Below are positions 16,587-47,969 of a DNA stretch of 64,000 bases, in pieces. The position numbers and the translations under genes were made by a program. The first letter of the stretch is position 1; each line of letters opens with the position of its first letter. The stretch is from Sphingorhabdus sp. EL138. Its GTDB lineage: Bacteria > Pseudomonadota > Alphaproteobacteria > Sphingomonadales > Sphingomonadaceae. The notes below the pieces were generated by a model. That model did no database searches. It was not told the DNA's origin and worked only from the letters and a program-made list of their open reading frames with translations. The stretch lies in contig NZ_OGVD01000001.1 in NCBI RefSeq assembly GCF_900258045.1, forward strand, positions 415,001-479,000, in the 5' to 3' direction.

Positions 16587-16647
16587 ACCGATCAACTACG
16601 CAATATTGCGTATCGCGCCGGGCTTTATCTCCCGCCAGATATCGGGA

Positions 16648-17007
16648 ATGACTTGGAAAACAATACGCCTTGAACTGGCCCGAACCGCTGAACATCCCAA
16701 TGGATCATCAGCCCATGCTTATGTGTTCCGTGTCCCGTTGGACGGCGCGGGGTTTATCGAACCGCAAGCGCTTCGTGAGGCGGAAAAACGCCCTGTAGTC
16801 CGGCGCTTCTGGCCCGGGGAACGCGACCAAAATGGCGTTGTCATCACCACCGACAAGGGCTGGGCCTTTTCCTACAAGGTCGGAGATGATGACGATGAAA
16901 TGATATTCGGGCTGCAAAATCATCCGATCAAGGTCGGTGAATATCTGACCATTACAGAGGCCGACGGCAGCGAACTGCCGTTCAGGGTGATCAGCTGCCA
17001 CGAATAG
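16648..17007 (+). CDS. Conserved hypothetical protein
   Basis: A 119-residue protein I do not recognise by name. I start it at the ATG (16648); a TTG at 16606 would add 14 residues. There is no signal peptide or membrane segment. The sequence is mostly predicted strand, with an acidic run (GDDDDEM) and a C-terminal PFRVISCHE. It lies downstream of the TetR gene and 40 nt upstream of a secreted protein gene. No function is assigned. Confidence 0.6.
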   Translation: MTWKTIRLELARTAEHPNGSSAHAYVFRVPLDGAGFIEPQALREAEKRPVVRRFWPGERDQNGVVITTDKGWAFSYKVGDDDDEMIFGLQNHPIKVGEYLTITEADGSELPFRVISCHE

Positions 17008-17047
17008 GTTTCTGTGGGCCACTGGGAACTAAAGAGGAGGAAACACC

Positions 17048-17680
17048 ATGTTTTTTCGCAACCATTTTACACGCAGTCTTTTGATTGGCGCAGGCTTGCT
17101 ATGCTTCGCGGCAACGCCAGCCACAGCCGAATGTGTCATCGGTTCGGAACCGCTCTTCGATCCGTTTGCGCCCTACAAGGGTGGCTCTGCCATCGTGCAC
17201 AAGGACAGCGGATTCGTATTTCCTTCTGAAGTGAGCGGGTTCAGACGCTTATGCGAGATGACGACTGACTTCTCCGGTGACAATTTCCAGATCCGCTATG
17301 AACGCATGATTGGCGAGCAGCTGGTCGCGGTCGACATCGCCGTCGTCCATCTCGAAGACCTGACCGCGCGTGACCATTACCGGATCATCAAACCTTCGGT
17401 CATGTCCCATTATGCCAGCGCATCTGTCGAGTCAGAAGGTGACTATTTTGTATCAGGGCGGGAAGACCTGTCTGCCTATCAGGGCATATTTGACGGTCAG
17501 AAAGACAACGTACCTTGGCATGTCAGCCTGACCGCGATTGATTATGGTTATTGGGATGCACGGTTGATTGCGTCCTATCCCCACCAACTGGATATTCCTG
17601 CGCAGGAAGCATTGATGGAGCTGGTCGCGGCCTTCCAATGGCAAAGCCCGGCCGATCAAGAGAAAGGCGAAGAGGAATAG
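17048..17680 (+). CDS. Exported protein of unknown function
   Basis: A 210-residue protein with a clear signal peptide (LLIGAGLLCFAATPATA, cleavage near residue 27). The strong AGGAGG sequence 6 to 8 nt before the ATG supports the start. The mature protein has two early Cys residues (ECVIG and RLCEM, about 29 and 68) that could pair in the periplasm. It is followed after 13 nt by the flavodoxin-fold gene and is probably co-transcribed with it. No known domain recognised. Confidence 0.7.
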   Translation: MFFRNHFTRSLLIGAGLLCFAATPATAECVIGSEPLFDPFAPYKGGSAIVHKDSGFVFPSEVSGFRRLCEMTTDFSGDNFQIRYERMIGEQLVAVDIAVVHLEDLTARDHYRIIKPSVMSHYASASVESEGDYFVSGREDLSAYQGIFDGQKDNVPWHVSLTAIDYGYWDARLIASYPHQLDIPAQEALMELVAAFQWQSPADQEKGEEE

Positions 17681-17693
17681 CGGAGAAAAAGCC

Positions 17694-18281
17694 ATGAAAC
17701 GCATTGCGATTATCGACGCCCATCCCGATCCCGACCCGGCACGCTTCGGACATGCCCTTGTCTCCGCCTATGCGCATGGGGCCAGGGAGGCGGGCCATGA
17801 GGTCCGCGAAGTCCGTCTGGCTGGCAAAGACATCCCGATATTGCAAAGCCGCAAACAATGGATGGAAGAAGATCCGCCGGCCAGTGTGAAGCCAGGGCAA
17901 GACGCCATAAAATGGGCGCAGCATGTGGTATTTTTCTACCCGCTCTGGATGGGCGACATGCCGGCGCTGTTGAAGGCCTTTATTGAACAGGCCTATCGCC
18001 CTGGTTTTGCCCTGGACTATGGCGAGGATGGCGACCGGAAACTGCCCAGAAAGCTTTTGACCGGGCGATCCGCCCGCCTGGTTGTTACAATGGGCATGCC
18101 AGCGATTTTCTATCGCGCCTATTTTGCTTCGCACAGTGTGCGGAGTTTCAAACGCAATATTCTTGCCCTGACCGGCGTAGACCCGGTTTCTACATCCCTG
18201 ATCGGTAATGTTGATGGTGGTCCGCAACATCGTGAACGCTGGCTGAAAAAGATGGCCGATCACGGGGCCAATGGCGATTAG
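17694..18281 (+). CDS. NAD(P)H dehydrogenase (quinone)-like flavodoxin-fold protein
   Basis: A 195-residue protein of the NQO1/KefF/MdaB type. The N-terminal FMN/FAD phosphate-binding stretch (IIDAHPDPDPARFGHALV) and the second cofactor loop (VVFFYPLWMGDMPALLKAF, about 78-96) are typical. It should carry out two-electron reduction of quinones or similar compounds with NAD(P)H in the cytoplasm. In other bacteria, relatives activate Kef potassium efflux; a KefB-type antiporter lies about 9 kb away. It opens the stress-related island. Confidence 0.82.
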   Translation: MKRIAIIDAHPDPDPARFGHALVSAYAHGAREAGHEVREVRLAGKDIPILQSRKQWMEEDPPASVKPGQDAIKWAQHVVFFYPLWMGDMPALLKAFIEQAYRPGFALDYGEDGDRKLPRKLLTGRSARLVVTMGMPAIFYRAYFASHSVRSFKRNILALTGVDPVSTSLIGNVDGGPQHRERWLKKMADHGANGD

Positions 18282-18394
18282 AGCCGGTGCCGGGGGCTCC
18301 GTAACATCCCTTATACAGAGCCAAAAATGATAGGGATACACTTCTCCTGTTGATGCTTTCCGAGTGGAAGATCATCAAAAATAGGAGAAAAATC

Positions 18395-19207
18395 ATGAAA
18401 TCCGTGCTGCTCTACGTCAACGATGACACCGGTTTGGAGGCGAGGCTGCAGGCGGCGCTGGATATCACTCGCGCGGTGAACGGACACCTCCACTGTTTGC
18501 GCGCTAATCCTTACAATCCGCAAATGGCCTTTGATGGCGTGACCGGCATGTCAGTGGTCTATGATGTCGCGAAGCTGACGCGAGCGGCCGATGAGAAACT
18601 TCGCAACGATATCGAAGCACGTTTGGCAGAAGAAGACGTCCCGTGGCACTATGAGGAAGTCAATGCCAGTCCGGCCCGCGGTTTGGCGCGCAATTCAGCG
18701 CTGGCCGATATAATGGTTCTAAGTTCGGCCAGCGGTGACAAGGATAATGTCCTTCCGCTGGGCATATTGGGCGATGTGCTGTTCAACACCAACGTTCCCG
18801 CGCTGGTTCAACCAGATGGTCTGAAAAAATTCGATGCGACCGGCACGGCAGTGGTCGCCTGGAATGGCAGCTTTGAGGCTGGCAACGCCCTGCGCGCTGC
18901 GGTGCCGATGCTCCGTCTGGCAAATGCAGTCCACATTTTGACGGTGGACGAGGATAAGGACCACGATTTGCCGCCGCTCGCCGCATCAGAATATCTCTCA
19001 CGTCACGGCATTACTTCTGAAGTGCATAGTATGTCAGCCAAAAAACCCTCGATCGAGGCGGTATTGTTGTCCACGGCCGATACACTCAAAGCCAGCTATA
19101 TGGTGATGGGCGCTTATGGCCACAGCAGGGCACGCGAATTTCTCTTTGGCGGTGTCACTAGAAGTCTGTTCAAGGATTGCCCGATGCCGCTGCTTGTATC
19201 CCGTTAA
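18395..19207 (+). CDS. Universal stress protein, tandem UspA domains (copy 1)
   Basis: A 270-residue protein with two UspA-like folds. The second has the nucleotide-binding motif G-x2-G-x9-G-x-T (MGAYGHSRAREFLFGGVTRS). I start at ATG 18395, preceded by AGGAG at good spacing; a TTG at 18350 would add 15 implausible residues. USPs bind ATP or AMP and act in stress or low-oxygen survival. It precedes the beta-CASP gene by 16 nt, so they form one operon. It is more diverged from the other two tandem USPs of this window than these are from each other. Confidence 0.87.
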   Translation: MKSVLLYVNDDTGLEARLQAALDITRAVNGHLHCLRANPYNPQMAFDGVTGMSVVYDVAKLTRAADEKLRNDIEARLAEEDVPWHYEEVNASPARGLARNSALADIMVLSSASGDKDNVLPLGILGDVLFNTNVPALVQPDGLKKFDATGTAVVAWNGSFEAGNALRAAVPMLRLANAVHILTVDEDKDHDLPPLAASEYLSRHGITSEVHSMSAKKPSIEAVLLSTADTLKASYMVMGAYGHSRAREFLFGGVTRSLFKDCPMPLLVSR

Positions 19208-19223
19208 TTCCCGGGAGGGCTGA

Positions 19224-20792
19224 ATGGCCGATAGCGTAACCATTACATTCCACGGGGCCGCTGGCACGGTTACGGGCAGTTGTTTTGAAATTAACGGTGC
19301 AGGGAAGACAATCCTGGTCGATTGTGGATTGTTTCAGGGGACCCGGTCACTTGAACGATTAAACTATGAAGCGCTGCCGTTCGATATTGGAAAAATCAAT
19401 GCCATCATCCTGTCCCACGCGCATCTGGACCATAGCGGACGGCTGCCTTGCCTTTACGGCCATGGCTATAACCCACCAACCTATTGCACGGCGGCAACCG
19501 CTGATATCCTGAAGCCACTGCTCATGGACTCTGCGAAACTGCAGGCGGCGTCGGTCGAACGCCGCAACCGGCGCGCAGACCGCGCAGGCTTACCGCCATT
19601 TTTTCCGCTTTATACAGGCGAAGATATTACGAAGCTGATGAGCAACATCACCACCATTAATTACTGCGAGGAAATCGATCTGGGCCATAATGTCTCGTTC
19701 CGGTTATGGGATGCCCGCCATATTGTGGGCTCTGCGTCAGTGGAGATAAACATAGGCGGTCAAAGGTTGATGATATCGGGCGATGTCGGGTCGGGCACCG
19801 CAATCCAGTGTGTGGGTCAGGAACTGGGTGGGTATGACCATGTCATCTGTGAAGCGACCTATGGCGCAAGGGAAAGGGAAGAAACGCTGCTGAGTGAGCG
19901 CCGGGAGGCCTTGGCTGCCTATGTCGAGGACAGCCTGAAGTCCGGAGGCAATCTGCTCATCCCGGCCTTTGCGGTAGAACGCACGCAGGTCATTCTGGAG
20001 GACTTTCTGGCTTTGTTTGACTCCGGACGTTTGCCGCCTGTCAACGTCTTCCTCGACGCACCATTGGCCCAAAAAGTCACGCGGGCGATGCTGAAATATC
20101 GCAACAACGGCGCCGATCTGCTCGAACGTCCCAATATCCGGTTCATCCAATCCGTTGCGGAATCCAAACAGCTGAATCACATGACGGGAGCTGTAATTAT
20201 TGCCGGGTCCGGAATGTGCGAAGGTGGCCGGATCCGCCATCATCTGATCCGCAACCTGCCCAGGCGGCAATCACGAGTCCTCTTTACCGGTTTTCAGGTC
20301 GCCGGAACATTGGGTTCGGTTTTGAAGAGAGGCGAGAAAATGGTGCGCATCTCCGGCAATGATGTGATCGTCAACGCCGATATCGCGGTGCTGGACGGTT
20401 ATTCCAATCATGCTGATCGCAAGGGCCTTCTTCGTTGGATCAAAGATCATGATCCGGTTTCCGGCTCCCTGTTCCTTGTCCATGGAGAAGAAAAGGCACT
20501 GCAGACTTTGGCCGGCGATTGCAAAGAAGCACAGCGCTATGGTGAGCCGGTCATCCCTGCTTTGGGTGAAATATGGGCCTTGCCTGCGGGCACACAGGCC
20601 CGTTTGCACAAACCGGGTCGCGGCAATGCTGCGCAGCTCATCGCGCCACAGGACTGGACTTCACGGCTCGCGGCCTTGCGCGCTTCGGTCCAGCAAAAGG
20701 TCCGGGCCCTACCGTCTGATCAGGACCGCGATAAAATGCTGAAATCGCTCGAACGGGCCCTGGAAAATTATCAGCAGGAAAAGCTGCGTTAA
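19224..20792 (+). CDS. Beta-CASP metallo-beta-lactamase-fold hydrolase (RNA-processing type)
   Basis: A 522-residue protein with the metallo-beta-lactamase motif SHAHLDHSGRLP (H65, H67, D69, H70), further metal-binding His (ARHIVGSASVEI), a beta-CASP insert (about 240-370) and a C-terminal RMMBL segment (YSNHADRKGLLRW). The family contains CPSF-like and RNase J-like nucleases, so RNA cleavage is the likely activity. It is co-directional with the USP gene 16 nt upstream. In several proteobacteria this family clusters with USPs among oxygen-limited stress genes; whether it processes specific RNAs is not known. Confidence 0.88.
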   Translation: MADSVTITFHGAAGTVTGSCFEINGAGKTILVDCGLFQGTRSLERLNYEALPFDIGKINAIILSHAHLDHSGRLPCLYGHGYNPPTYCTAATADILKPLLMDSAKLQAASVERRNRRADRAGLPPFFPLYTGEDITKLMSNITTINYCEEIDLGHNVSFRLWDARHIVGSASVEINIGGQRLMISGDVGSGTAIQCVGQELGGYDHVICEATYGAREREETLLSERREALAAYVEDSLKSGGNLLIPAFAVERTQVILEDFLALFDSGRLPPVNVFLDAPLAQKVTRAMLKYRNNGADLLERPNIRFIQSVAESKQLNHMTGAVIIAGSGMCEGGRIRHHLIRNLPRRQSRVLFTGFQVAGTLGSVLKRGEKMVRISGNDVIVNADIAVLDGYSNHADRKGLLRWIKDHDPVSGSLFLVHGEEKALQTLAGDCKEAQRYGEPVIPALGEIWALPAGTQARLHKPGRGNAAQLIAPQDWTSRLAALRASVQQKVRALPSDQDRDKMLKSLERALENYQQEKLR

Positions 20793-20808
20793 AGCGCTGT
20801 CAACGGCC

Positions 20809-21651
20809 TTATTGTAGGTCGCGCACCATCATCACATCCTGCTTGAGCCAGCCCAGAAGCACCCGCGCATTATTGCCCATGCTGGCGCGCATGAAACCGC
20901 TTTTGCCATGCGTCCCCAACACTACCAGATCGGATTTCAATTCCTTGATCTTCTTAAACAAGACAACGCCAAGTTCACCTTTTTCGTTGGAAGCCTTCAG
21001 GCGTTTGAATGTGGCGTTGTCGATCGTGGTCTGCGCCAGAAAGCGCTCCATCAACTTGGCTTCTTCGGAGCCGATATCCTGTGCCACCTGATCCGACTTC
21101 AACCAGCCGCTATAGGGAACATTGTAAGCGTGGACGAGATGAAGCGGTATCTCTGGAAACAATTCAGCCGCAGTGTTGAGGGCGGTCATCGAACAATCGG
21201 AAAAGTCCGTCGCGATCATTATACTGCGATAGGGTTTTACCGGCTTGCGCTTGATGATCAACACCGGGACATCGGCATGGCGGACGATATGGTCCACAGG
21301 CGATCCCAGGAAAACATCACTGAACCCGTCATAATGAGCCACGCCGGTTACAATCATCCCGCAGCGTTCCCGCCTCGCGGTTTCTATTACCAGCTCCCCG
21401 ACATTGCCCATTTCGATGATGAATTCCACATCCACATCCGTTTCGGGCAACTCTTCTTCCAGCTGGATTCGCGCTTCCTTTGGTACGAGTCCCTTTTTCT
21501 TCGCCTGTTTGGGGTCCAGCACATGAACTACGATCAAGCGCGTTTTCCAGGACTTCGCCAGCATCAGCGCGCGATCAAAAGCGCGGTCGCAGCGAGCCGT
21601 CATGTCTGTTGCCAGAAGGATGGGTTTGTTTGTCGTTTTGGTGTCGGTCAT
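20809..21651 (-). CDS. Universal stress protein, tandem UspA domains (copy 2)
   Basis: A 280-residue protein with two UspA domains (about 8-135 and 142-280). The second domain has the nucleotide-binding loop GTHGKSGFMRASMGNNA. It resembles the USP at 29201-30034 across its length (for example shared ATD-type openings and GTHG loops), so the two are paralogues. It is convergent with the beta-CASP gene and divergent from fixL; its upstream region holds the G-rich inverted-repeat element. Confidence 0.87.
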   Translation of the reverse strand: MTDTKTTNKPILLATDMTARCDRAFDRALMLAKSWKTRLIVVHVLDPKQAKKKGLVPKEARIQLEEELPETDVDVEFIIEMGNVGELVIETARRERCGMIVTGVAHYDGFSDVFLGSPVDHIVRHADVPVLIIKRKPVKPYRSIMIATDFSDCSMTALNTAAELFPEIPLHLVHAYNVPYSGWLKSDQVAQDIGSEEAKLMERFLAQTTIDNATFKRLKASNEKGELGVVLFKKIKELKSDLVVLGTHGKSGFMRASMGNNARVLLGWLKQDVMMVRDLQ

Positions 21652-21666
21652 CTTTGAAAAGCTTGC

Positions 21667-21755
21667 CCCTTGAAATTATTATAGAAATGGGTGCAGGCCG
21701 CCCTCCCTCCTTTTGCGCCCGCGGGGTGGGGTAGGGGGAAGGGGCGTTTCAAGGG
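21667..21755. repeat. Inverted-repeat element with a four-tract G-quadruplex motif
   Basis: Nine-bp inverted ends CCCTTGAAA (21667-21675) and TTTCAAGGG (21747-21755) enclose a pyrimidine tract (CCCTCCCTCC) and a plus-strand G-rich run whose tracts are at 21723-21726, 21728-21731, 21734-21738 and 21741-21744, with loops of 1, 2 and 2 nt. That fits the strict G-quadruplex pattern with four-layer tracts. It lies just upstream of the minus-strand USP gene. Confidence 0.6.
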
Positions 21756-21927
21756 ATAGAAAGGCGACCTGCGTACCTCCTCAACCAGCACTGGGCGGCG
21801 TTGATCGGGATCTTTCAATTTCTTTCGAGTGCTTCGGTCCATCTTCATTCGGCCTCGCAGCTCTTTGCCCCTTGTTTGAAAGGACGATTATTATTTTTGG
21901 CCGCGGCAGGAAATCAGTGGAGTTCCC

Positions 21928-21943
21928 TACGTAGTTTTACGTA
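21928..21943. promoter_or_regulatory. Paired TACGTA sites, candidate FixJ binding site
   Basis: TACGTA occurs at 21928-21933 and again at 21938-21943, 10 bp apart centre to centre, which puts both on one face of the helix. FixJ/NarL-type regulators bind as dimers to such paired sites. The same core recurs at 24221-24228. That FixJ binds here is inference. Confidence 0.4.
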
Positions 21944-22055
21944 TTTCGCTTCAGGCTGTCCGTCATGCTTAGATCGCGTCAGCATTTTACATTTTGGCAT
22001 CACTAGATATTCGTAGTAAAGGCGATGCCTCGAGGGTTCGAAGGAGCTTTTCACG

Positions 22056-23588
22056 ATGCGCGCATTCGGGTTGGATCAAATTGACCGGTCGGCCTATCTC
22101 GAAGCCGTGCTGTCGACCCTGCCGGAATATATCATGGTCATCAGCCCGGATCGACAGCTGATTGATATCAACCAGGCCGGACTTCGTATGATCGGCGTGG
22201 AGCGGCTTGACGATCTGCCGGACAGCGATCCGCTGACGCTGATTTCCAAATCCTGTCGCCCTGCCTTTCAAAAAGCGCTCGCCTCCGTCTTCGATCGTGA
22301 TAGCAAGTCCCGTGGCAAGCCGGTCCATATCGAACTGTTGCTACACAATGGCGGATCACATGTTCTGGAGTTGCGTTTCGCTCCGCTTCACGAACGAGAT
22401 GGCACTATCAGTGCTGCGGTCATTACTGCACGTGACATATCCGAATTGCGCAACACGCTTGCCGCCGTGGAGCAATCCACATCAGTGCTGCAATCCATCC
22501 TCGAGACCGTTCCTGATCCGATGGTGGTGATGGATGAAAAATGCCGCATCACCTCGTTTAGCACGGCGGCGGAAAAACTGTTTGGCTATAGCGAAGGCGA
22601 GCTGCTCGGGCAGAATATCAGCATACTCATGCCATCCCCGTATAGTGAGGAGCATGATAATTATGTTGATCGCTATATCCGTACAGGTGAAAAACGGATC
22701 ATCGGCATAGGCCGAACCGTGGAGGGGAAGAAAAAGGACGGTACGGTCTTTCCAATACGGCTTGCAGTCGGTGAAGCAAAGGCAGGAGACCAGCGCCTGT
22801 TTACCGGCTTCATTATTGATCTGACCGAAGCACGCAATACCGAGGCCGAGTTGCAGGCTCTGCAAACCGACTTGTTACACTCGTCCAGGCTCAGCGCCGT
22901 TGGGACATTGGCCTCTGCGCTGGCCCATGAAATCAACCAGCCGCTGTCGGCCATCACCAATTATCTGTCCGCAGCGCGCGACATGCTCGATAGCGGCGCA
23001 GAGGAGAATAAAGATTCTCTCTATGAAGCCATGCGCGAAAGCGTATCGGAAGCCCTGCGTGCCGGCACTATAGTCAGGCGGCTGAGAGAGTTTGTGTCCA
23101 AAGGCGAACTAAACCGCAAAAGACTGTCCATTGCCCAGCTTGTCGAGGATGCGACAATCCTCGGTCTGGTAGGCGCTCATGATCAGGGAGTGGAATCATC
23201 TATCGAGATCGACCCTGACACTAATCACGTTTTTGCCGACCGGGTGCAGATTCAGCAGGTCATGATCAATCTGATGCGCAACGCGATTGAAGCGATGGCC
23301 GACAGCGCGGTCAAACATCTGAACATTGCCGTACGTTCAATACCCGATGACAAAGTCGAAATAGCAATATCAGACACTGGCAGAGGCATCGATCCGGATA
23401 TTGCCGACAAGATTTTTGACCCGTTCACCAGCACCAAAAACAGCGGCATGGGTCTCGGACTTTCCATTTGTCGCACGATTATTGAAGCGCACGAAGGTAC
23501 AATCAGCGCCGCACCCAATCCGGAAGGGGGGACGATCTTCCGCATAACCCTTTGGAAATCCCATGAGGAGCATTCTGATGTCCAATGA
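22056..23588 (+). CDS. fixL: Oxygen-sensor histidine kinase FixL (haem-PAS)
   Basis: A 510-residue soluble kinase with two PAS domains (about 12-128 and 140-258) and a HisKA/HATPase core. The second PAS keeps the residues that bind haem and sense oxygen in Bradyrhizobium FixL: H200 as haem ligand, R206, I215, R220 and L236, with Val at 238 instead of Ile. The autophosphorylated His is H291 (ALAHEINQPLSAI), and the N (NLMRNAIEAM), G1 (DTGRGI) and G2 (GMGLGLSI) boxes are present. No membrane segment is seen, as in Bradyrhizobium and unlike Sinorhizobium. GAAGGAG precedes the ATG. It overlaps fixJ by 11 nt. In FixL, loss of oxygen from haem switches the kinase on. Confidence 0.92.
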   Translation: MRAFGLDQIDRSAYLEAVLSTLPEYIMVISPDRQLIDINQAGLRMIGVERLDDLPDSDPLTLISKSCRPAFQKALASVFDRDSKSRGKPVHIELLLHNGGSHVLELRFAPLHERDGTISAAVITARDISELRNTLAAVEQSTSVLQSILETVPDPMVVMDEKCRITSFSTAAEKLFGYSEGELLGQNISILMPSPYSEEHDNYVDRYIRTGEKRIIGIGRTVEGKKKDGTVFPIRLAVGEAKAGDQRLFTGFIIDLTEARNTEAELQALQTDLLHSSRLSAVGTLASALAHEINQPLSAITNYLSAARDMLDSGAEENKDSLYEAMRESVSEALRAGTIVRRLREFVSKGELNRKRLSIAQLVEDATILGLVGAHDQGVESSIEIDPDTNHVFADRVQIQQVMINLMRNAIEAMADSAVKHLNIAVRSIPDDKVEIAISDTGRGIDPDIADKIFDPFTSTKNSGMGLGLSICRTIIEAHEGTISAAPNPEGGTIFRITLWKSHEEHSDVQ

Positions 23589-24219
23589 ACGCCTGGTCTA
23601 TATTGTCGATGATGACGATGCCGTCCGCCGGTCGGCGTCTTTCATGCTGCGCCATGCCGGGTTCCAGGTACGTCCGGTTGAATCGGGAATTGCCTTTTTG
23701 AAGCTTGCCAAAAACGCCGAGCGGGGATGCGTATTGCTGGATATCCGCATGCCGGAAATGAACGGGCTCGAGGTTCAGCAAGAGATGGTCAAGCAAGGCA
23801 TAGATATGCCGGTCGTGATATTGACCGGTCACGGCGATGTTGAAATTGCAGTGCAGGCGATGCGTGCCGGTGCAATAAATTTCCTTGAAAAACCCTACGA
23901 AAAAGAAGCGCTTTTGGCGGCAATGACGGAAGCGTTTGAACGCATTGATAACAGTGAACTGAAAGAAATGGCATCATCCGAAGCCAAGGTACGGCTTGCT
24001 TGCCTGACCGGACGTGAGCGCGATGTGCTGGACGGCCTGATGACCGGCTATCCCAACAAAACCATTGCTTATGATCTGGGCATTTCGCCGCGCACAGTAG
24101 AAATATATCGCGCCAACATGATGGAAAAGCTGCGCGTGCGAAGCCTCGCCGAGGCTCTGCGTATCGGCTTTGCAGCAGAGGACGGCAAAATGGTAAACGC
24201 CAAACCGGTACAGCACTGA
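23578..24219 (+). CDS. fixJ: Response regulator FixJ
   Basis: A 213-residue FixJ-type regulator: receiver domain (residues 1-125, acidic pocket DDDD at 11-14, phosphoacceptor D55 in LLDIRMPEMNG, Thr/Lys switch region ILTGHGD and EKPYE) and LuxR-type helix-turn-helix (about 140-200, LTGRERDVLDGLMTGYPNKT then GISPRTVEIYRANMMEKL). I choose ATG 23578 because GAGGAG lies 7 nt upstream; ATG 23563 is too close to that site. It should be phosphorylated by FixL and activate transcription, classically of fixK. No fixK gene is present in this window. Confidence 0.91.
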   Translation: MSNERLVYIVDDDDAVRRSASFMLRHAGFQVRPVESGIAFLKLAKNAERGCVLLDIRMPEMNGLEVQQEMVKQGIDMPVVILTGHGDVEIAVQAMRAGAINFLEKPYEKEALLAAMTEAFERIDNSELKEMASSEAKVRLACLTGRERDVLDGLMTGYPNKTIAYDLGISPRTVEIYRANMMEKLRVRSLAEALRIGFAAEDGKMVNAKPVQH

Positions 24220-24220
24220 C

Positions 24221-24228
24221 TTACGTAA
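24221..24228. promoter_or_regulatory. TTACGTAA palindrome upstream of the host-attachment gene
   Basis: A perfect 8-bp palindrome starting two nt after the fixJ stop and about 134 nt before the next gene's GTG. It shares its core with the paired sites upstream of fixL. Binding by FixJ is a guess based on this recurrence. Confidence 0.3.
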
Positions 24229-24361
24229 CTCTGCGGATAGCCTGCCTCTTTGAGCAGCGATACTATCGACGATAATATGTTGACTTCAGCTTGTCGCAAT
24301 TAACTTGTAACACACTGTATCAGAATGCAGCATAGACCGTGAACTCAAAACAGGAAGAAAC

Positions 24362-24805
24362 GTGCTGATACGCAATGGTAGCTTGATTGTCGCGGTCGAT
24401 GGATCGCGCATGTCGATTTTTCGCAATGTTGGTGAAGCCTTCAAGCCAGCACTGGAGCTTGTTGAAGAGCATCAGAGCCCCACGCCAAAATCATCCGACA
24501 TGGGTGATGACAGGCCAGGCCGAAGCTCGCAAAGCACCAGCCCGCGCAAGGAGGCCTATGAACAAACTGATTTGCACCAGCAGGCAGAAGACCGGTTCGC
24601 CCGAGAGGCTGCCGAAAGAATTGACCAGATAGCGCGCGATTCCAAAGTTGGTCTGGTACTTGTCGCCGCCCCGCGGGCATTGGGAGTGATCCGGCAGAAT
24701 CTCAGAACCGAAACGAGCCAGAAATTACTGGCGGAGATCGACAAGGCTTTCGGCCCACATGAAACAGAGTCTTTGGCCAAAATGCTTGAGAAACATCAGG
24801 CCTGA
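24362..24805 (+). CDS. Host attachment family protein
   Basis: A 147-residue protein matching the family annotated as required for attachment to host cells. The N-terminal strand (SLIVAVDGSRMSIFRN), the acidic/Gln-rich middle (QTDLHQQAEDRFAREAAERI) and the C-terminal LVLVAAPRALGVIRQNL are typical. The GTG start is preceded by AGGAAG at 5 nt. The name derives from an Agrobacterium plant-attachment study, and the molecular function is not established; the fold suggests a translation-related (eRF1-like) origin. In other bacteria it often lies near low-oxygen stress genes, which fits the fixLJ neighbourhood. Confidence 0.8.
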   Translation: MLIRNGSLIVAVDGSRMSIFRNVGEAFKPALELVEEHQSPTPKSSDMGDDRPGRSSQSTSPRKEAYEQTDLHQQAEDRFAREAAERIDQIARDSKVGLVLVAAPRALGVIRQNLRTETSQKLLAEIDKAFGPHETESLAKMLEKHQA

Positions 24806-24810
24806 ATCCG

Positions 24811-25416
24811 CTACTCTGTGGGGGCAGCGGCACTCAGGTCAAATTCCAGCAGCATCAGCGTAGCATCGCCGGGATAGCTTTTCGCTGTGAATCCCATTTC
24901 ACGCTCCAACTCAATTGCCGCATGATTTTCGCGGCTCTCAATGGATTGCAGTTTCTTGATACCGCTACGCCGGGCTTCGTTTGCCACATATTCCAGGAAG
25001 GTCCAGCTCATGCCGCGGTGCTTGTAATCGGCGTGGACGACAATCGCGACCTCGGCGACCGACTTGTCCTCATTCGCGCCAATCATGGCGCTGGCGACGA
25101 TGGTCTTGTCGTCAATGTCGAAAGCGAGAAAATCTTCCTTATGGTCATGATCGACGTCGACCAGATAAGACAACATCTCATCGCCCACTTCGGGAATCGG
25201 AGACAGAAAGCGAAAACGTAAGTCATCTCTGGTCACATGCCTGAAAAATTCCGCCAAGGCTTCCTTATCGGCTGAAGCAACAGGGCGGACATGAAATTCA
25301 AACCCGCTGCGCGTGGTGAGCGGGATTGACTTGCTGACGATCAGATCGTGACTTGAATCCGTTTCCGGTTTCTTGGGCTTTATCGAAAGGGTCGGTTTGG
25401 CTGTTTGATCGGACAT
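24811..25416 (-). CDS. GNAT-family N-acetyltransferase
   Basis: A 201-residue protein with a GNAT fold over about residues 40-190. The acetyl-CoA loop (VHADYKHRGMSWTFLEYV) and the following beta4/alpha4 region (LQSIESRENHAAIELEREMGF) resemble the acetyltransferase domain of PatZ/Pat protein-lysine acetyltransferases, but the large CoA-ligase-like domain is absent. It would acetylate a protein or small molecule using acetyl-CoA. It is convergent with the host-attachment gene with only 5 nt between. Confidence 0.83.
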   Translation of the reverse strand: MSDQTAKPTLSIKPKKPETDSSHDLIVSKSIPLTTRSGFEFHVRPVASADKEALAEFFRHVTRDDLRFRFLSPIPEVGDEMLSYLVDVDHDHKEDFLAFDIDDKTIVASAMIGANEDKSVAEVAIVVHADYKHRGMSWTFLEYVANEARRSGIKKLQSIESRENHAAIELEREMGFTAKSYPGDATLMLLEFDLSAAAPTE

Positions 25417-25543
25417 CGGGGGCTCCTTGCAGCTAGCTTTGTGTAGCTGAATTTACGGGGGAAGATGAGGTCCGCGCTATGTCAAACGGGACCATCGCTT
25501 TCTATCCGTAATGCCCCTTATGGTGCCCCTCCAAAGATGGCGA

Positions 25544-47078: not shown

Positions 47079-47969
47079 TCAGCGAAGATGTTTTTTTAAA
47101 TGATTGATCAGCGCATTGACCCGAGCGGGGCGATGAGGCGATGGTGGCATCATCAGGTTGAGCGCTATCTCATTGAAGCTCCAGTCAGGCAATATGACCT
47201 CCAAAGCCCCGCTATCAATCGCGTCCTGGCATAAAAAGTCCGGCAGATAGCCAATGCCGCGACCGGCAATCAACGCCGGCAGCATGATATCACCGTTGTT
47301 ACTTCGGAACCGGCATCTGGGACGGACGGATGTTTTCTGTCCCTCCGGTCCTTTCATATTCCACATTTCCGGGTTGGGCACGTTGGAATAAAGAAAGCAA
47401 TCATGGTCTACGAGCTCTTCTGGCCTAGTCGGCGTACCGCGGCGTTTCAGATAGTCCGGCGATGCAATGCAATGAACCTTCATTCCGCGCAGGCGAACGA
47501 CACGCAAACTGCTATCCGGTAGCTCCGCGATACGAATGGCTACGTCAAAACCCTCTTCCACGAGATCAACCCGGGCATCGTTAAGCTGCACATCGACCGC
47601 TATCTCGGGATATTCACACATGAAATCGGCGATGACCGGTGCCAGATGGGACAGCCCAAAGCTGAGCGGCGCGGCTAACCGGATCTGTCCGCGCAGTAAA
47701 TGAGCAGTGTCGCGCGCAGCCTCCATCGCCGCCTCTCCATCCACTGCTATCGCCTGTGCGTATGGCAGTAGTGCTTTCCCCGCGGTGGAGAGGGATATTT
47801 TCCGGGAGGTGCGATGAAATAATACCGTGCCGAGCGACTCCTCCAATCGTGTAACGGCCTTGGACACTGTCGGCTTGGAGATCGCGAGTTCGTGGGCAAC
47901 GGCGGTAAAGCTGCCAAGCCGCGCCGCTGCTGCGAATATCGCCCATGCCTCAAAATCAGGAAGGTTCAT
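47079..47969 (-). CDS. LysR-family transcriptional regulator
   Basis: A 296-residue regulator with the N-terminal winged helix (residues 1-62, AISKPTVSKAVTRLEESLGT) and a type-2 periplasmic-binding-like effector domain (about 90-290). It is divergent from pirin and wrbA, the typical layout for a LysR regulator of its neighbours, likely responding to a quinone or aromatic compound. Confidence 0.88.
   Translation of the reverse strand: MNLPDFEAWAIFAAAARLGSFTAVAHELAISKPTVSKAVTRLEESLGTVLFHRTSRKISLSTAGKALLPYAQAIAVDGEAAMEAARDTAHLLRGQIRLAAPLSFGLSHLAPVIADFMCEYPEIAVDVQLNDARVDLVEEGFDVAIRIAELPDSSLRVVRLRGMKVHCIASPDYLKRRGTPTRPEELVDHDCFLYSNVPNPEMWNMKGPEGQKTSVRPRCRFRSNNGDIMLPALIAGRGIGYLPDFLCQDAIDSGALEVILPDWSFNEIALNLMMPPSPHRPARVNALINHLKKHLR

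Follow-up and report, generated by a model that had tools for sequence, protein, structure and literature searches.

The stretch of DNA analysed in this study, referred to here as the window, comprises 64,000 nucleotides (nt) of the forward strand of contig NZ_OGVD01000001.1 from Sphingorhabdus sp. EL138 and carries two adjoining genes, fixL and fixJ, predicted to encode a haem-based oxygen-sensing histidine kinase and its response regulator (Table 1). The pair lies in an island of stress-related genes, several of which, including a universal stress protein (USP) gene, are preceded by candidate FixJ binding sites. The host, a member of Sphingomonadaceae, has a genome of 3.66 Mb in 4 contigs that is 100% complete; genomes and loci used for comparison are given G and L numbers where they have to be told apart. 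The start of fixL is preceded by GAAGGAG, and that of fixJ is most likely ATG 23578, which follows GAGGAG, rather than 23563. For the first gene of the row beginning at 16648, that position was taken as the start instead of 16606, since stop codons interrupt the upstream stretch in some relatives.

Table 1. Genes and candidate FixJ sites of the fixLJ island (positions in the window)
Feature	Position	Strand	Remarks
Candidate FixJ site, perfect palindrome TACGCAATATTGCGTA	16597..16612	.	ends 35 nt before ATG 16648
119-amino-acid (aa) protein	16648..17007	+	first of gene row 16648-20792; no Pfam or NCBIfam match
210-aa protein	17048..17680	+	signal-like N-terminus by eye; no Pfam match
Flavodoxin_2 / NAD(P)H oxidoreductase-like protein	17694..18281	+	E 5e-34
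Candidate FixJ site TCCGTAACATCCCTTA	18298..18313	.	starts 97 nt before USP start codon 18395
Universal stress protein	18395..19207	+	four further genera of the family have a homologue near a FixL-like gene
Beta-CASP metallo-beta-lactamase-fold protein, RNase-like	19224..20792	+	domain matches
Tandem universal stress protein	20809..21651	-	no site within 180 nt of start
Candidate FixJ site TACGTAGTTTTACGTA	21928..21943	.	ends 112 nt upstream of fixL start
fixL	22056..23588	+	510 aa; first PAS, haem PAS (about 145-257), HisKA with H291, HATPase_c
fixJ	23578..24219	+	receiver and LuxR/FixJ-type helix-turn-helix response regulator; overlaps fixL by 11 nt
Candidate FixJ site TACGTAACTCTGCGGA	24222..24237	.	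between fixJ and baeRF12 gene; starts 140 nt before 24362
baeRF family 12 / Host_attach protein	24362..24805	+	E 6.5e-31
GNAT acetyltransferase	24811..25416	-	E 3.4e-8
Candidate FixJ site TCCGTAATGCCCCTTA	25505..25520	.	before GNAT gene (minus strand)

Searches with phmmer against PDB sequences aligned the second PAS domain of FixL without gaps to the FixL proteins of Sinorhizobium meliloti (1d06, E 8e-39) and Bradyrhizobium japonicum (1dp6, E 1.4e-39), with identities of 68/120 residues (57%) and 68/125 (54%), respectively, and the kinase part to FixL chimaeras (4gcz, E 2.7e-79); the family identity is not a chance match. As read from the translation, the protein carries H200, R206, I215, R220, L236 and H291, which we take to be the functional residues of B. 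japonicum FixL, together with I218, so that the first-pass annotation had correctly numbered each haem- and oxygen-related residue and the phosphorylated histidine. Position 238 is a valine, as in the aligned S. meliloti chain, the B. japonicum chain having isoleucine. The second PAS domain thus has a proximal histidine and what are presumably the FixL distal and propionate residues, and is followed by a HisKA domain with a phosphorylatable histidine and then HATPase_c. Among the 26 FixL orthologues of the genus (the window and L002-L026), H200, I215, R220, L236 and H291 are kept in all and R206 in 24, being histidine in the other two; of 30 FixL-like rows that are more distant, 29 have H200, the exception being L190 with arginine. 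Haem-based oxygen sensing by FixL is a well-supported prediction from sequence. The predicted structure of FixL, obtained from a 10-row alignment, had a mean predicted local distance difference test (pLDDT) score of 61 and was uninformative. A second, hybrid-sized FixL-like kinase with an open frame of 794-847 aa was seen in three genomes (L028, L029 and L030, from G029, G016 and G027); these hybrid kinases lack H200 and R220.

The best PDB match of FixJ was FixJ itself (5xso, E 8.6e-49). Its receiver pattern gives D55, T83 and K105, presumably with their usual roles in the receiver, so that a phosphoacceptor aspartate and a LuxR-type helix-turn-helix are found together in a gene adjoining fixL.

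The absence of nitrogen-fixation genes from the window, pointed out in the first-pass annotation, extends to the whole genome for nifH, for which the best match reached 26.5 bits against a curated cut-off of 394 (nifD and nifK were not searched). The nifH cut-off was passed by one of the 34 genomes searched (G046, from another family). At E<=1e-20 the host genome has a single FixL match, FixL itself. Of the other 31 genomes of the genus, 25 have FixL at E<=1e-60; those without it are G009 (100% complete), G017 (97%, in 240 contigs) and four genomes that are 67-82% complete. Outside the genus, the same threshold was reached in one of 28 genomes (G034), and in a sample of the class 37 of 385 genomes, the host included, have a match at E<=1e-85. 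Proteins 75-97% identical to FixL occur in records of uncultured Sphingomonadaceae isolates and of 'Sphingomonadales bacterium EhC05'. A midpoint-rooted tree built from 60 kinase cores places the 26 sequences of the genus in a single clade (100/97). This clade belongs to a group of 34 rows (99/97), whose remaining members are the four further FixL-like rows of the family, the three hybrid kinases and a long-branched row from another family. The adjacency of fixL and fixJ is kept in all 23 other loci examined, and a USP gene lies upstream of fixL in 22 of them, the contig of the remaining one (L069) beginning too close to fixL. In four other genera of the family (G034, G071, G204 and G384), no more than about 1.5 kb separates the FixL match from a USP homologue.

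The S. meliloti FixJ site is quoted in PMC4999443 as TAAGTAATTTCCCTTA. Twelve of its 16 positions are matched before the USP, GNAT and fixK-like genes, 11 before fixL, 10 at 16597 and 9 at 24222. On both strands of the window, a 12/16 match occurs at three places, of which 18298 and 25505 are intergenic and stand before island genes; the third, 59697, lies inside an open reading frame (ORF) and was dropped. The USP and GNAT sites were found by this comparison; a palindrome weight matrix missed them in the window (scores of 5.2 and 4.2 against a threshold of 8).

Conservation was followed promoter by promoter. Upstream of fixL, 24 columns containing TACGTAGTTTTACGTA are invariant between varying flanks in seven sequences chosen for alignment, and a site within one mismatch of TACGTANNNNTACGTA is present in 13 of 24 sequences (the window and 23 loci), with two mismatches in L053 and a weak form in L056; it is absent from all nine loci of a sister clade (L057-L065), where the USP gene lies close before fixL. 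All 23 sequences compared have the USP site; its position is -94 to -98 in 22 of them and -81 in L065, whose start is doubtful, and it is the most conserved of the 227 segments of 16 columns in the alignment. The palindrome before 16648, with one base left free, is present in 24 of the 29 loci examined, window included. One-base variants occur in L144 and L146, half of it is lost in L159, and it is absent from L161 and L162, which lie outside the genus; L145 was left out of this count, and two further matches had no locus. It is also carried by two genomes 80-82% complete and with no FixL match (G002 and G008). Between 16597 and 16650, TACGCAATATTGCGTA is followed by a conserved TCGCGC with no clear Shine-Dalgarno sequence by eye, and L161 and L162, where the palindrome is absent, have AAGGAGG; the 16648 transcript is possibly leaderless. 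The baeRF12 site is present in 14 of 14 sequences, and one similar to the GNAT site in 12 of 13 (missing in L056).

The sites are also clustered. The pattern TACGTA-N4-TACGTA with at most two mismatches occurs at 21 places in the 3.66-Mb genome, three of which fall at 16597-24237, against 0.04 expected from the other 18; with the founding site excluded, the probability of at least two is about 7e-4. A fourth match in the window lies at 47531. The sequence TASGTANNNNTACSTA has two exact occurrences in the genome, one upstream of fixL and the other upstream of the fixK-like gene, the pattern having been drawn up after both had been seen, and TMSGTANNNNYMSKTA, fitted to the sites, occurs exactly at 8 places, 3 of them in the island. 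TACGTA alone was rejected as a signal (4 found, 3.09 expected), matches inside genes (e.g., L033 and L034) were set aside, and matches before genes that are TetR-type by eye (L037, L042, L163 and L164) are probably other operators. Two further matches in the host genome (G000) were noted: TAAGTATTGTTACGGA, some 95 nt upstream of an ORF judged by eye to encode a zinc-type alcohol dehydrogenase (L199, around 1501; contig 4, 634420), which is a candidate further target, and TAGGTATCAGTAAGTA, some 63 nt upstream of an ORF judged by eye to be hslV (L036, around 1501; contig 1, 1166343), which may be due to chance.

Outside the island, conservation was checked for the sites of the fixK-like gene and ccoN. 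The fixK-like Crp/Fnr gene (P0003) lies on contig 3, separate from the island contig, and a palindromic FixJ-like site starts 212 nt upstream of it, giving the predicted regulator a FixJ-like DNA site before a fixK-type gene. The best NCBIfam match of P0003 is Caulobacter FixK, at 147.8 bits, which does not reach the cut-off of 300 (FnrL, 85.8 bits), and it has no cysteine in its first 45 residues. G017, with a fixK-like gene and no FixL match, has no site within three mismatches at that place.

The fixLJ pair of the sister clade faces a set of cco genes (ccoN-ccoO-ccoP-ccoG) accompanied by a copper-type P-ATPase; the four cco products pass their cut-offs. The ccoN upstream region was measured in four sister loci; in three of them (L057, L063 and L065) a FixJ-like site with 0-2 mismatches stands at -72 and no FNR box is present even with three mismatches allowed, and the region is cut off in the fourth (L060). 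A site at the matching end of the stretch is present in eight of nine sister loci, and G022 carries TACGTATTTCTCCTTA at -87 before ccoN. In the host genome, by contrast, ccoN lies about 171 kb from fixLJ on the same contig, behind an FnrN-type gene whose product has N-terminal cysteines and scores 235.9 bits on FnrL (cut-off 300). A perfect FNR box, TTGATCTAGATCAA, stands at -92 of this ccoN, and 300 nt contain no FixJ-like site with up to two mismatches. FixJ and FnrN therefore seem, as judged from their promoter sequences, to have exchanged control of ccoN within one genus.

The surroundings of fixLJ have changed in other respects. The baeRF12 gene lies 1.6-1.7 kb after fixJ in nine of the 14 loci that have it; the intervening stretch, annotated in L046-L048, holds a weakly DUF883-like gene and a lipoprotein-like gene, and a small proline-rich ORF was seen by eye in L047 and L066. 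In these loci baeRF12 is provided with a separate site; the window and L067 lack both the stretch and that site, and the post-fixJ site now starts 140 nt before baeRF12, for which a deletion is the simplest reading. In several close relatives a gene between usp and fixL encodes Hsp20 (in L046, with homologues in L047, L048, L051 and L053). It is missing from the window (21651-22056), and the aligned sequence there has a gap of about 0.47 kb relative to L067. Two sister loci have a FixJ-like site before a peroxiredoxin gene. As for the island genes themselves, the 119-aa protein gave a likewise uninformative predicted structure with a mean pLDDT of 67.5 from a 10-row alignment, and the best NCBIfam match of the beta-CASP protein was the type VII CRISPR Cas14 model, at 296 of 800 bits and below the cut-off. 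The island products (USPs, beta-CASP protein, baeRF12 protein and flavodoxin-like oxidoreductase) would suit survival without growth at low oxygen.

The conserved sites before the fixL, USP, 16648, baeRF12, GNAT and fixK-like genes suggest that FixJ probably drives a hypoxia and stress regulon directly, in a logic resembling that of mycobacterial DosR. FixL would act as a haem-PAS histidine kinase with no predicted membrane part. By analogy with the biochemistry of rhizobial FixL and FixJ, oxygen bound to the haem at H200 would turn the kinase off, and a fall in oxygen would lead to phosphorylation of H291 and transfer of the phosphate to D55 of FixJ. Judging from the conserved sites, phosphorylated FixJ would then bind half-palindromic sites and directly activate the fixLJ operon, the 16648 row, the USP(-RNase) unit, baeRF12, the GNAT gene and the fixK-like gene. 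The output would be a programme for survival of hypoxia and stress, with high-affinity respiration (cco) left to FnrN in the host and ccoN apparently taken directly by FixJ in sister species. We give this model, in which haem FixL and FixJ would switch on the regulon directly, the fixK-like gene included, and leave cco to FnrN, a probability of about 0.72. A bolder version, in which the FixLJ of the genus is a DosR-like master switch directly driving the USP, Hsp20 (in relatives), beta-CASP RNase, baeRF12 and GNAT genes, with control of the cbb3 oxidase swapped between FixJ and FnrN within the genus, is tentative and falls slightly short of an even chance. The proposal of the first-pass annotation that the pair controls the surrounding stress island is borne out in part, as five island promoters carry conserved FixJ-like sites. 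It was too wide, since no candidate site lies within 180 nt of usp 20809 (which starts 277 nt from the fixL site), usp 29201 or kefC 27361, and too narrow, since sites are also found before the fixK-like gene, the ccoN of relatives and the two sister peroxiredoxin genes.

Several observations weigh against direct control of this kind. The site patterns were derived from the sites that they describe, so that the counts are partly circular, and genome-wide they are rarer than reversed controls (21 vs 107 on the forward strand; 6 vs 36; and, on both strands, 9 vs 49); the case therefore rests on clustering and conservation rather than on an overall excess. The candidate site is degenerate, and the sites may instead belong to another regulator with the same footprint. 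The 16648 palindrome is unusually near the start codon for an activator site. Three genomes of other genera with FixL near the USP gene have no good site at -97 (G071 and G204 have two-mismatch matches elsewhere only, and G384 has none), while G034, also with FixL near the USP gene, has one at -96 with one mismatch. None of the four USP homologues of the FixL-less genomes G009, G017, G032 and G033 has a site near -97; they are just 37-41% identical and therefore may not be orthologues, and the start of the G037 homologue could not be placed reliably. Of 16 species, only 10 have a site with at most three mismatches at -210 to -212 of the fixK-like gene, and none that good is present in five others that do have FixLJ (G013, G019, G020, G028 and G029). 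Finally, FixL and FixJ fall below their NCBIfam equivalog cut-offs: FixL reaches 484 of 850 bits on NF041777, the best of 87 families, and FixJ 241 of 255 bits on NF006900, its best family and a near miss. As NF041777 is named for rhizobia, the missed cut-off argues against membership of the rhizobial subgroup and not against FixL; despite both scores, architecture and homology make the two proteins new members of known families.

A classical cascade, in which FixJ activates only the fixK-like gene, FixK and FnrN run the rest, and the island sites belong to another regulator, is unlikely, although it is the best placed of the alternatives. A fixK-like gene with a site does exist, fixK is described in PMC4999443 as the sole conserved FixJ target in Caulobacterales and one of four in Rhizobiales, the predicted alphaproteobacterial FixK regulon includes Hsp20 and zinc alcohol dehydrogenase (PMC2908626), and other FixJ/NarL-type regulators could share the motif. 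However, FNR/FixK boxes, tried as a link to the island, are no more frequent in the window than expected (3 against 2.99), the USP and GNAT sites agree with that of S. meliloti FixJ in 12 of 16 positions, and in nine of the 23 genomes having the USP site the fixK-like protein has no match at E<=1e-40. Rather less probable still is that FixL reads nitric oxide, carbon monoxide or redox state, or has lost its haem function, with no oxygen switch in vivo. Haem PAS proteins can bind other gases and R206 is replaced in two orthologues, but all named pocket residues are present in the window protein and four of them throughout the genus, whereas the three paralogous hybrid kinases lack H200 and R220, and in the sister clade a cbb3 oxidase cluster lies next to fixLJ. 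That the pair is a rhizobial cassette acquired recently, without any local role, is disfavoured to the point of being very improbable: a survey of 50 genomes reported FixLJ orthologues for Caulobacterales and Rhizobiales, whereas for Sphingomonadales it reported FnrN only (PMC4999443), but FixL is widespread in the genus and its sequences form one clade in a group made up mostly of the family's own FixL-like and hybrid kinases.

Returning to direct control by FixJ, a likeness in wiring is seen with mycobacterial DosR-DosS/T, which pairs a haem sensor kinase with a NarL/FixJ-class regulator and whose sensor domain and lineage are unrelated to those of FixLJ. That system governs USPs and alpha-crystallin under hypoxia (PMC6127331), and the likeness is one of wiring, not membership. 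Rhizobial FixLJ (S. meliloti and B. japonicum) shares the haem PAS domain, the architecture of kinase and FixJ, and a similar DNA site, and differs from the system described here, where no nifH was found, a FixJ-like site stands at fixL and the putative targets are USP, baeRF12, GNAT and genes of no known function. The FixLJ-FixK-FixT system of Caulobacter crescentus is likewise that of a non-diazotrophic alphaproteobacterium, with a haem FixL, FixJ, a fixK-type target and a low-oxygen programme (PMC7078487, PMC4999443). Its targets, as these sources give them, are high-affinity oxidases and haem genes, with fixK as the only conserved direct FixJ target, whereas here several stress genes carry FixJ-like sites and an FnrN gene stands at cco. 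Burkholderia FixLJ is also an oxygen-responsive two-component system of non-nitrogen-fixers (PMC5234846, PMC6127331), and the low-oxygen-activated lxa locus of that genus is hypoxic and includes six USPs and a heat-shock protein (PMC6127331). There, a link through a FixK homologue is only a suggestion and the fixLJ homologues are found elsewhere (BCAL2210/2211), whereas in the window fixLJ is part of the island itself and the candidate sites resemble that of FixJ. In Sphingopyxis granuli, of the same order, FnrN controls a low-oxygen programme with cco genes; its 'FixK' keeps the iron-sulphur cysteines, and the network presented in that study is drawn without FixLJ (PMC7713065). FNR control of uspA in Alphaproteobacteria has been predicted (PMC2908626).

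The presence of FixLJ in a non-diazotroph, which the first-pass annotation had singled out, is no surprise, as it is already known from Caulobacter (PMC7078487) and Burkholderia dolosa (PMC5234846). In the open-licence PMC literature searched, no report was found of FixLJ in this genus or in Sphingomonadales, of FixJ control of USP genes in sphingomonads, or of a FixJ with several conserved direct stress-gene sites, and the apparent novelty looks to lie in the wiring, that is, in several FixJ-like sites at stress genes. FixJ has mostly been viewed as a narrow regulator acting through fixK. The sites of this genus, kept through gene losses and rearrangements, may offer a natural series for following an oxygen sensor as it moves from respiration towards stress survival, promoter by promoter.

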